A stretch of DNA of 64,000 nt from an uncultured bacterium (GTDB lineage: Bacteria > Cyanobacteriota > Vampirovibrionia > Gastranaerophilales > Gastranaerophilaceae): NCBI GenBank assembly GCA_949297715.1, contig CASFTJ010000001.1, forward strand, positions 186,001 to 250,000. The letters run 5' to 3'. Each line of letters starts with the position of its first letter. Position 1 is the first letter of the stretch. Positions 31,742 to 43,867 of the stretch are shown here, piece by piece. The notes beneath the pieces are model-generated. The model was not told where the DNA came from and made no database searches. It worked only from the letters and a program-made list of their open reading frames with translations. Both the position numbers and the translations under genes were made by a program.

Positions 31742-32518
31742 TTACCAAGGATAATCCTTTTTCATTTCCCAGCTATCATTTATTATCTTTGCTGCACAGT
31801 ATTCTCCGGTACCATTTAAACTGCAATTACTGTTAATTTCTGCTTGAGTTTTGTCATATCCGAATGGTCTTACGATGTTTTTGTCAAAAAACACTTGAAA
31901 TACAAATACATCTTTACCTATAATATTTGGAGGTTTGATTCCATTTAAATCGACATGAACTCTTTGTCCCGAAGAATATTTTGCTATTTTTGAAATTATA
32001 TTACCGTCATCATCATATTCATATTCCCACCACATCATATTTATATAATATGCTGTTCCATCCATTGTTGTAAAATATATTCGACCAATACTGTATGATG
32101 TAAATATACTTTGTCCATATTTATCACCATTTATTGTTTTGAATATGCTATCAATTCCGTAAGGGTATACACCACTTTTTGAAACCGTCGGGTTATTAAA
32201 ATATGGAAGCCAGTATTGTTCAAAAAATTTTTTGGTTGCATCTGCATTCACCGTGTCTGACGTAGAAAAATAAGCCCCGCCGTTATCTTCTTGAGCTTGC
32301 AAAACCATTTGACTTAATACCGTATAAGCTTTTTTTAATTGTGATATTGTTGCCTGCTTTTTATATTTACCCAATACTGCAGGAAGAGTCATTGCAATAA
32401 CAACGCCCAATATCCCTAAAGTTATTAAAACTTCCGCTAATGTAAATCCAGCCTTTTTCCCTTTTAAGGAGCTATTCTTGGGCGCCCCCCCCCCCCATAA
32501 TCCAATCATACTGTGCAT
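31742..32518 (-). CDS. Type IV pilin-like protein with poly-G leader, in frame (ON)
   Basis: This 258-residue protein begins MHSMIGLWGGGAPKNSSL and continues GKKAGFTLAEVLITLGILG, so the prepilin leader has an unusual glycine run encoded by G12 (32485-32496). ATG 32518 has the strong ribosome site AAGGAG at 6 bases spacing, and with 12 G it reads in frame through the whole pilin. The shared motif DLNGIKPPNIIGKDVF is present at the C-terminal side, and the tail ends DYPW. A 9-base copy complementary to the ribosome site lies in codons 17-20. Upstream is the palindrome-rich repeat at 32573-33160. It is convergent with the four-wHTH regulator. Confidence 0.9.
   Translation of the reverse strand: MHSMIGLWGGGAPKNSSLKGKKAGFTLAEVLITLGILGVVIAMTLPAVLGKYKKQATISQLKKAYTVLSQMVLQAQEDNGGAYFSTSDTVNADATKKFFEQYWLPYFNNPTVSKSGVYPYGIDSIFKTINGDKYGQSIFTSYSIGRIYFTTMDGTAYYINMMWWEYEYDDDGNIISKIAKYSSGQRVHVDLNGIKPPNIIGKDVFVFQVFFDKNIVRPFGYDKTQAEINSNCSLNGTGEYCAAKIINDSWEMKKDYPW
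32485..32496 (-). repeat. Homopolymeric G12 tract in pilin leader (in frame)
   Basis: A run of 12 C on the plus strand (12 G on the coding strand) lies 22 bases after the A of the pilin ATG. In-frame reading needs a length divisible by 3, and 12 satisfies this. A change of one base would switch the pilin off. Confidence 0.92.
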
Positions 32519-32572: not shown

Positions 32573-33160
32573 TTTTTGACAAGTATTTAGATTTTATGCG
32601 CCACACAAAAGCACTAACCAAACTTTGCGGTGCGTCGAAACGACGCACCATACAATATAAAAGCCTAAATTCCCTCAAATATCTTAAAAAACAAAATTTT
32701 GCGACGATGGCAGAGTGTGTAAATTTTTATTTAAATAACCACCCTTCACGTAGTGAGCAAGCATTGTTTTGTTTCACAGCTTCATAAGCAAGCTTTGTTT
32801 GAGCGGAGCGAGTTTGCTTGCTTTGGGTGAAACATTTACATATGATTAGCGAACGGAGTGAAGGGCGTGGTTTGCGTTGCTTTTCCACAAAAGCGACCGC
32901 CCTTCTAGCGCAAGACCTGCCGGAGGCTTTATAAATCTATTTTTTGGTGTGTCAAACGACACACCCTACTTGAGCTTTGCGTATTATAAGCAAACGTAAG
33001 CGTGTCAATGGTTTTGAAACACTTTTTCCACAAAAAGTGCCCCTGTCCGGAGGACTTTTTTTAAACATATTCAAAAGCAAACCGCTGTCTGCGCAAGACT
33101 CGCCGGAGGCTTTAATTATCTTCGTTTTATAATTTTGGTGCGTCTTTCCGACGCACCCTA
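32573..33160. repeat. Palindrome-rich dispersed repeat, copy A (~590 bp)
   Basis: This 5' flank of the phase-variable pilin fills most of the 678-base gene-free gap 32519-33196. It shares long near-identical stretches with 41062-41621 (for example ATTTAAATAACC at the left side and TCTATTTTTTGGTGTGTCAA further on). It holds hairpins GGTGCGTCG-3-CGACGCACC (32629-32649), GGTGTGTC-4-GACACACC (32946-32965) and GGTGCGTC-5-GACGCACC (33137-33157), and nested longer stems (TGTTTCAC with GTGAAACA; CCACCCTTCAC with GTGAAGGGCGTGG). No coding frame with a ribosome site is seen. The outer limits are approximate. Confidence 0.85.
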
Positions 33161-40291: not shown

Positions 40292-41008
40292 TTAGTACCA
40301 AATCTTGAATGGGTAATCTTTCGGTATCATCCAATTGTTATACTGTATTAAAAGTGTGCAATAGGCTGCCCAAGTAGAACTTTTACTACAACCATATAAT
40401 GAATGATTATACAAATTACTTTTAGAACCATCCCAATTACTCTGACCATATGGACCAAAAACTCTGCCTTTTATATTTGTTGAAACCGGATTGTAAAAGA
40501 AAGCAAATTTACATATTCCCCATCCATCATGTCCTCCAGAATATTTTTTCAAACATTTTTCAGGATCTCCCGGATAAAAGGTCCAGTCCCGACCATTGGA
40601 ATCTACATTTGAAAAAGCGCCGCCATCTACAAGATAGTAAATCACAACCCCATAAGCTGTTGTATCTGATTCTTTTAATATATTTAAATGCTCTTTTAAA
40701 TACAAATCAAACCAAGCTTTATTCAAAGAATTTCCATCTGCATCAACGCCGTAGACATCCTGAAACCAAGTTTCTCTTTCACCATGCTTATTCTCTGCAA
40801 GCATTATTGCCTGATTCATTACTGTATAGAATTTTTGTAACTTAGTCGCTAAAACTTTCTTTTTGTGATCTTGAACCACTGTCGGCAAAGTCATTGCTGC
40901 AACAATTCCAATAATCCCAATCGTTATTAAAACTTCCGCTAATGTAAATCCTGCCTTTTTGCCTCTTAAGGAGCTATTCTCGGGTGCCCCCCCCCCCCTG
41001 TAATTCAA
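40292..41008 (-). CDS. Type IV pilin-like protein, out of frame behind a G12 tract (OFF)
   Basis: The open pilin frame encodes GKKAGFTLAEVLITIGIIG and a ~200-residue body, but the properly spaced ATG at 41021 (AAGGAG, 6 bases) is 13 bases above the annotated start and out of frame. With 12 G the frame from that ATG runs to TAG after 15 codons, so no full pilin is expected. The only in-frame start above the signal is TTG 41008 without a ribosome site. An 11- or 14-G tract would restore the frame. Unlike the other six, the C-terminal region lacks the DxNGxKxPN motif and holds GRVFGPYGQSNWDG instead. Confidence 0.85.
   Translation of the reverse strand: MNYRGGGAPENSSLRGKKAGFTLAEVLITIGIIGIVAAMTLPTVVQDHKKKVLATKLQKFYTVMNQAIMLAENKHGERETWFQDVYGVDADGNSLNKAWFDLYLKEHLNILKESDTTAYGVVIYYLVDGGAFSNVDSNGRDWTFYPGDPEKCLKKYSGGHDGWGICKFAFFYNPVSTNIKGRVFGPYGQSNWDGSKSNLYNHSLYGCSKSSTWAAYCTLLIQYNNWMIPKDYPFKIWY
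40987..40998 (-). repeat. Homopolymeric G12 tract in pilin leader (out of frame)
   Basis: A run of 12 C on the plus strand (12 G on the coding strand) lies 23 bases after the A of ATG 41021. The in-frame lengths are 11 or 14, so the pilin is OFF in this assembly. Confidence 0.9.
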
Positions 41009-41061
41009 TCATATCAAGCATTTCCAGCTCCTTATACTTTTCTATGCTACTCTTTTTACTT

Positions 41062-41621
41062 TTGACAAGTATTTAGATTTTACGTGCACCAACAAAGCAC
41101 CAAACCAATTAATTCGGTGCGTCGAACGACGCACCCTACTAATATTTTATATACAACTAAAAAATAAATTTTGCGACAATAGCGGAGTGTGCAAATTTTT
41201 ATTTAAATAACCGCCCTTCACGTAGTGAACAATCATTGTTTTGTTTCACGGCTTCATAAGCAAGCTTTGTTTGAGCGAAGCGAGTTTGCTTGCTTTTGGT
41301 GAAACATTTACATATGATTAGCGAACGAAGTTCAGGGCGTGGTTTGCGTCGCTTTTCCACAAAAGCGACCGCCCTTCTAGCGTAAGACCCGCCGGAGGCT
41401 TTATAAATCTATTTTTTGGTGTGTCAAACGACACACCCTACTTGAGCTTTGCGGATTATTAGCGAACATAAGCGTGTCGATGGTTTTGAGGCACTTTTTC
41501 CACAAAAAGTGCCCCCGTCCGGAGGACTTTTTTAAAATATATTCAAAAGCAACAGCCCTTCTTGCGCAAGACCTGCAGGAGGCTTTATAAATTTATTTTT
41601 CGGTGCGTCGTTCCGACGCAC
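41062..41621. repeat. Palindrome-rich dispersed repeat, copy B (~560 bp)
   Basis: This second copy of the element at 32573-33160 also lies upstream of a G12 pilin gene, in the same orientation relative to it. It has the same hairpins: GGTGCGTCG-2-CGACGCACC (41116-41135), GGTGTGTC-4-GACACACC (41418-41437) and GTGCGTCG-3-CGACGCAC (41603-41621). Most of its length can be aligned by eye with copy A, with point differences and small gaps. The rest of the gap to 41747 is AT-rich. Confidence 0.85.
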
Positions 41622-42935: not shown

Positions 42936-43763
42936 CTATCTTCCATTTATAAAATCGTGCCAATAGTCTTTATGTTTGTCCGTTGGATGAGTATTTGAAA
43001 TAGCATACATTGAACAAGAAATACCGCTATAAGGTGAATACCATTTATTATCGCAATATTTTTCCGTATTTTCATTTGGAATGAAATTAGTATAGACACC
43101 GTTTTCACCATATTGATTATCTTTGTGTTGCTGCCCCCAAGGAATTACATAACCATCAGTCGTAAATATAAATACAAAATAATCTACTCCGTAAATATTT
43201 GGCCCTTTTTCTCCATTTATATCTATACAGACTTTAGGACCGTTTTTACCACTTTTGGGAGCATCATCAAAAGATATAGGTCTACCTATGCCGTCAAAAA
43301 AAGTTGAGGTTACATCACAAATTGACTGACAATCCAGATTTTTACTACTAAGAACACTCCAACCATGCCATTTGCCATCTTTACCTTTGTATGGTCTTGC
43401 TCCAACATTATTCCCATCCTCATCTACTGTAGAATTTACATTTGTATTCTTTTTTAGTATGGCATTAAATTCTTTTTTAAATAGATTTAATGTCGCCTGC
43501 GAATCTGAATTTGAGGCATAATCACTTACTGTTGTACCATTATGAACCTGAAACATCTTGCTTGCTGTATTCAAATCAGCATAAGCCTTTTTAAACTCCG
43601 TTTGTAAAATCACAATCTGGTAATGCTTCATTAACTGCGGAAATGTCATTGCTGCAACGATTCCAATAATTCCAATCGTTATCAAAACTTCCGCTAATGT
43701 AAATCCTGTTTCTTTCCCTCTTAAGGAGCTATTCTCGGGTGCCCCCCCCCCCCTGTAATTCAA
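42936..43763 (-). CDS. Type IV pilin-like protein, out of frame behind a G12 tract (OFF)
   Basis: This is the third G12 pilin. The prepilin signal is GKETGFTLAEVLITIGIIG, and the body holds the shared motif DINGEKGPNIYGVDYF. The properly spaced ATG is at 43776, and the sequence from there to past the G tract is base-for-base the same as in the 40292 gene. With 12 G it reads out of frame to TAG. The annotated frame has only TTG 43763 as start, with no ribosome site. In-frame lengths are 11 or 14 G. No long repeat lies upstream, unlike the other two. Confidence 0.85.
   Translation of the reverse strand: MNYRGGGAPENSSLRGKETGFTLAEVLITIGIIGIVAAMTFPQLMKHYQIVILQTEFKKAYADLNTASKMFQVHNGTTVSDYASNSDSQATLNLFKKEFNAILKKNTNVNSTVDEDGNNVGARPYKGKDGKWHGWSVLSSKNLDCQSICDVTSTFFDGIGRPISFDDAPKSGKNGPKVCIDINGEKGPNIYGVDYFVFIFTTDGYVIPWGQQHKDNQYGENGVYTNFIPNENTEKYCDNKWYSPYSGISCSMYAISNTHPTDKHKDYWHDFINGR
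43742..43753 (-). repeat. Homopolymeric G12 tract in pilin leader (out of frame)
   Basis: A run of 12 C on the plus strand (12 G on the coding strand) lies 23 bases after the A of ATG 43776, so the pilin is OFF in this assembly. The leader is identical to that of the pilin at 40292. Confidence 0.9.
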
Positions 43764-43867
43764 TCATATCAAGCATTTCCAGCTCCTTATACTTTTCTAT
43801 AACACTCTCCTATTATATATTATATTATTCAATATTACAAGCCCATATTTAAAATACTTTTTATGTT

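Follow-up and report, generated by a model that had tools for sequence, protein, structure and literature searches.

A gene for a type IV pilin-like protein lies on the minus strand at 40.3-41.0 kb of the window, the term used here for the whole 64-kb stretch of DNA analyzed. The mature body (FTLAEVLITIGIIG..., 40292..40948, mature start at 40948) is intact, 218 aa long, and ends in a DUF6613 C-terminal part. The N-terminal cleavage/methylation motif of prepilins is present (PF07963, 28.1 bits, cut-off 21.2; TIGR02532 above cut-off). An AlphaFold2 model (pLDDT 85) predicts a 53-residue N-terminal helix (residues 3-55), followed by strands and a beta-rich head. The predicted model retrieved nothing from PDB at E<=0.001, the type IVb pilin 3fhu being found at E ~1. 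The protein does not qualify as a sortase-anchored pilin of the LPXTG type, Pfam giving N_methyl and DUF6613 only. Four matches over cut-off to assembly ATPases (PF00437; PilB/PilT-like) are found in the genome. Motif, modelled helix and head, and ATPases together point to a type IV pilin-like product, the assembly of which into filaments is a prediction.

The pilin body is preceded by a leader which features, in minus-strand order, the Shine-Dalgarno (SD) sequence AAGGAGCT (41026..41033), GGAA, the ATG at 41021, CTTGATATGATTGAATTACA, a homopolymer of 12 G (40998-40987), which is a putative slippage tract, CACCCGAGAATAGCTCCTTAAGAGG and the pilin signal. The leader frame MLDMIELQGGGGTRE (40974..41021, minus strand) runs for 15 codons from ATG 41021 to the TAG at 40976-40974, one base out of register with the pilin (OFF, +1 base). 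Re-reading the sequence gave the same 15-codon frame, ending past the G-run, and the same out-of-frame pilin as the preliminary description, and the frame of the 41-kb copy confirms that the gene is OFF as assembled. The pilin frame (GCA CCC GAG AAT AGC TCC TTA AGA GGC AAA AAG GCA GGA TTT...) is in register only at G8, G11, G14 etc. The in-frame lengths of 11 or 14 proposed earlier hold for the leader of the 41-kb copy, but do not extend to other leaders, ON and OFF being set by the distance from start to pilin and not by tract length alone. The only start in the pilin frame is, as had been noted, a TTG (41008), and a properly spaced ribosome site is missing. In the window copies no ATG, GTG or TTG follows the leader stop, and translation restart in the pilin frame was discarded.

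Three runs of 9 or more G occur in the window (32485, 40987 and 43742), each occupying the equivalent position of a different pilin gene. Counted as overlapping matches they are 12, against 0.09 expected from shuffles of this 36% GC sequence, which rules out a chance origin of the G-run. Most of the window's pilins that lack a tract open just 4 residues ahead of the signal and have a standard SD. The tract leader thus amounts to some 20 residues added upstream of the prepilin cleavage site, and would be absent from the mature pilin if prepilin peptidase cuts there.

Promoters and sister genes in the window

Both sister pilin genes are on the minus strand. The one at 42936..43776 has a leader identical to that of the 41-kb copy and a G12 tract (43742-43753), is OFF by the same frame, and has an intact body. 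The one at 31742..32518 also carries 12 G (32485-32496), but its leader is one base shorter, and the gene is ON (258 aa). TATAAT is present in both. Most sister copies with the same leader share a TTGTCA-17-TATAAT promoter, of which the 41-kb copy retains a remnant (41050..41068, minus strand): the -35-like TTGTCA (41068-41063) is kept, and 17 bases including the -10 box of the sisters are deleted between AAAAG repeats. The promoter search found no substitute near the start of this copy, and the gene next upstream is divergent. With the -10 box deleted, a change of the tract alone may not turn the gene on; the 41-kb copy is probably OFF twice over, by frame and by promoter, and probably either currently silent or transcribed from a promoter that escaped notice.

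The out-of-frame state, the damaged promoter and the divergent upstream gene would suit a decaying pseudogene. They would also suit a silent recombination donor, and 64% alignment identity to a homologue found in two related genomes (G005 and G006), together with the shared leaders, would permit gene conversion. Either condition would concern the 41-kb copy only, and is compatible with the explanation proposed below for the family. We regard it as possible, though on the doubtful side, because the body of the copy is fully intact, with zero stops or frameshifts, and the 43.7-kb sister is OFF despite a good promoter. The latter gene, having the same leader and G12, illustrates an OFF switch more cleanly.

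A palindrome, TGYGTCRAACGACRCA, resembling a REP-like dispersed element, resides upstream of tract pilins at 32948-32963, 41118-41133 and 41420-41435. These three exact matches in the window compare with zero in shuffles.

Frame states and change of the tract

The genome (2.02 Mb, 34 contigs) contains 27 runs of at least 9 G. In about 24 cases, each in a different pilin gene, the run separates the start codon from the FTLAEVLIT-type prepilin signal; matches to N_methyl total 87. Contigs C7, C15, C19, C20, C29 and C34 break off within the shared pilin leader or close to it, and since so many contigs end there, the count of tract pilins in the draft is probably a minimum. MutS and MutL are both present, which rules out lost mismatch repair and counts to some degree against switching by slippage. 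Two further runs were observed in other settings. A second G12 run (L018 375-386; G000:C2:219774-219785), lying outside any leader frame, some 215 bp ahead of where an ON tract pilin starts, is a possible promoter-region repeat. A G11 run (L063 957-967; G000:C8:8856-8866) sits directly at an ATG, and is followed by a membrane-like frame of 69 codons, OFF from that ATG, in which no pilin motif was found.

Frame states could be read for 110 tract pilins of the genus. ON genes are 22, genes one base too long (OFF+1) are 77, from 12 assemblies, and genes in the other OFF frame (OFF-1) are 11. Permuting tract lengths within genomes 20,000 times, as if they were independent of frame, gives 37 ON, 49 +/- 4 OFF+1 and 24 OFF-1 genes, and none of the permutations reached 77 OFF+1. 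The excess persists when similar leaders are merged, OFF+1 being found in 30 of 48 clusters (binomial vs. 1/3, p = 4e-5). Each in-frame class has its own modal tract length (11, 12 and 13 in turn). The default state thus tracks the frame rather than a fixed length, and a pure mutational equilibrium of length is ruled out. Part of the skew may be an inherited state, as an A-to-G change at the edge of the tract shifts both its length and the class of the locus at once.

The preliminary description read the OFF state as that of a phase-variable pilin, and comparison with other copies and orthologues supports this at the sequence level. Within the genome of the window, two copies with identical near flanks differ in tract and state (C7:190038, G11, ON; C1:11995, G12, OFF+1). 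Two genes from related genomes (G005:C1:2619 and G006:C22:4234) encode bodies 100% identical at the protein level and differ by 3 substitutions over 1.3 kb, all other differences being confined to the tract or lying next to it: the former reads A2G13, has lost a G after CACCC and is OFF+1, the latter reads A1G12 and is ON. The near-identical stretch of ~1.3 kb lies beside a radA-like gene (L072/L176) in two species-level genomes, and results either from recent transfer or from bin cross-contamination. Changes of state appear slow in consensus sequences, because tract length is the same in 37 of 39 pairs with identical 40-nt flanks; several of the relatives are Candidatus Gastranaerophilales metagenome bins, the tract length of which is a consensus. 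Of 35 orthologue pairs with an identity of 60% or more, 22 are in the same state, close to the ~19 that state frequencies alone would give by simple arithmetic.

Bodies of OFF genes are seemingly in use at some time. Residues past the signal number at least 166 in 75 of the 77 OFF+1 genes and at least 200 in 74, and dN/dS is 0.10-0.38 for pairs including an OFF member. A pseudogene reading is thus ruled out for the family, OFF bodies being intact.

An error of assembly or consensus, the true tract being in frame and the gene ON, might be suspected, since errors are frequent in homopolymers and these repeats often lie at contig ends. It would require the same frame error in 77 of 110 loci from 12 assemblies, tracking leader length, which makes chance error unlikely as a general explanation; in addition, ON copies with the same leader were assembled in the same genome. 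We consider an error of this kind highly improbable.

The presence of the same leader and tract before ~24 pilins in one genome, the differences in tract length and frame among near-identical copies and orthologues, and the purifying selection on intact OFF bodies make phase variation well supported. The features of slipped-strand systems are largely found here: a long homopolymer in the 5' coding part, beyond chance; a frame shifted by one-unit insertions or deletions; an OFF body which is intact and under selection. Length polymorphism among near-identical alleles or copies was seen in other copies and species, not for the 41-kb allele. The anatomy, the frame states, the repertoire, the tract and frame differences between near-identical copies, and the purifying selection on OFF bodies are direct results of the sequence comparison. 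With good confidence, we interpret them as a large set of pilins that would vary in phase by slipped-strand mispairing, with a default of OFF, one G above ON.

According to this model, the G-run would act as a slippage switch inside a removable N-terminal leader. Translation would begin at ATG 41021 and, with the tract in frame (G11), would yield a leader of ~24 residues, prepilin signal and body as one protein, from which prepilin peptidase would remove the leader before F. With one extra G, the ribosome would stop after 15 codons, at the conserved stop just before the anti-SD strand, and the pilin would not be made. Replication slippage would shift single loci between states, most loci resting at ON+1 as the default OFF and turning ON upon deletion of one G. 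As slippage would act on single loci, cells of a population would differ in the subset of the ~24 pilins that they express and display at the surface.

The leader as RNA and the preferred OFF frame

Simple ON/OFF switching leaves the strong preference for one of two OFF frames unexplained, and tract length follows frame class too closely, in the permutations, for slippage to be entirely free. The skew is a sharp test of slippage at the DNA versus the RNA level. If RNA polymerase or the ribosome dropped one G in some rounds, OFF+1 would be the working state, giving constant low amounts of pilin, and ON copies would be high-output variants. The excess of OFF+1 and the depletion of OFF-1 fit this scheme, as two inert OFF frames should be equally frequent, and so does the position of the leader stop, conserved 3-5 nt before CTCC in 56 of 59 OFF+1 loci. 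Yet ON and OFF-1 copies occur as well, some of them among near-identical loci, a conserved shift site was not found beyond the G-run, and slippage by RNA polymerase is reported to favor A/T over G/C runs (PMC5084427). Such slippage in RNA or on the ribosome is, on balance, unlikely. A broader form of the idea, in which OFF+1 is a selected working state, strikes us as rather improbable as well: the genus-wide leader, with its SD hairpin, short ORF, G-run and stop at the hairpin arm, would supply low stochastic pilin by one-G drops in transcription or translation, and DNA slippage to ON would provide a high-output mode.

The SD of the 41-kb copy is also the 5' arm of a leader hairpin, the 3' arm of which, AGCTCCTT (40968..40975, minus strand), is conserved as nucleotides and read in all three frames across the family. 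In most loci AGGAGCT in the SD arm pairs with AGCTCCT behind the tract, and helices of at least 6 pairs can be formed in 86 of 122 loci, compared to ~9% in shuffled sequences. The CTCC core persists whichever of the three pilin frames it falls in (43/22/21 loci), and is therefore conserved as nucleotides. Helices formed by a locus's own arms are longer than those formed by swapped arms (6.26 vs. 5.98 +/- 0.09), and single-sequence folding predicts a stem at the SD. We read the structure as a putative translation-damping hairpin. All this would also suit an RNA switch, in which the small upstream ORF and the SD-sequestering hairpin set translation and the G-run is a structural part rather than a slippage device. 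However, no usable start exists within the pilin frame itself, and an upstream-ORF switch cannot give pilin unless the tract is in frame. Moreover, folding of whole leaders is no better than that of shuffles (z 0 to -0.8), and Rfam families had no match in the leader. An RNA switch in place of slippage is very unlikely; as an addition, it is partly compatible with slipped-strand variation.

Known systems and distribution in the family

In Neisseria, pilC, which encodes the tip adhesin PilC, carries a poly-G in the signal-peptide region, and pilE varies by recombination from silent copies (pilE/pilS antigenic variation). The genes described here are similar in that a type IV pilus gene has a homopolymer where the signal peptide is encoded, and in the set of related pilin sequences but, unlike in pilE/pilS, the pilins are encoded by separate genes, every one of which carries a tract. 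Phase variation of translation through poly-G tracts is already known as a kind, and the closest precedent is that of Bifidobacterium breve pili. Two sortase-dependent pilus loci of strain UCC2003, bbr_0113 and bbr_1889, have experimentally studied G-tracts; these are intragenic G10-G12 runs near the pilus gene start, an active start in a second frame is absent, the annotated length is OFF, one G fewer is ON, and ON variants are enriched in the mouse gut (PMC9187656). Both cases involve a gut commensal, a G-tract near the start of a pilus gene, and an ON state one G below the reference length. They differ in that the actinobacterium has two loci for sortase pili, whereas the ~24 genes of the genome analyzed here are type IV pilin-like and have the leader module and SD hairpin in common. 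The poly-G/C phasome of Campylobacter jejuni NCTC11168 includes 29 loci, mostly in reading frames, with combinatorial ON/OFF states (PMC4965091). Here too many G-tracts, mostly in reading frames, reside in a small genome, but nearly all at one position of one gene family, in contrast to the varied surface genes of Campylobacter.

New features are the lineage, a repertoire of this size, the common leader and its SD hairpin, and the strong preference for one OFF frame. The host, an uncultured gut bacterium, belongs to a non-photosynthetic branch of cyanobacteria, and no paper on phase variation in Gastranaerophilales, themselves uncultured gut bacteria, was found in the literature. If the interpretation is true, ~24 separately switchable pilins per 2-Mb genome would make for dense combinatorial surface variation in a gut commensal, and the failure of gene callers, which miss or truncate many of these pilins, would be explained.

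The leader module (G-run followed by CACCC) was detected in 13 of the 14 genomes of the genus, and the CACCC-type leader in one genome among those sampled from the rest of the family. Poly-G itself is not restricted to the genus: of 41 genera sampled in the family, 27 have runs of 12 G. It is the CACCC-type leader alone that is nearly genus-specific. A search for viral contigs gave no match. In two other genera (G059 and G069) poly-G precedes pilin signals within unrelated leaders, and such leaders are thus probably older in the family, or evolved repeatedly. In G059, runs of G13-G14 are also found before membrane-protein frames sharing a KSDAENRNLAVWKPFINKKGQINYNFGRDYD-like stretch (L237, L238 and L239), and poly-G switching may therefore reach beyond pilins in that genus.
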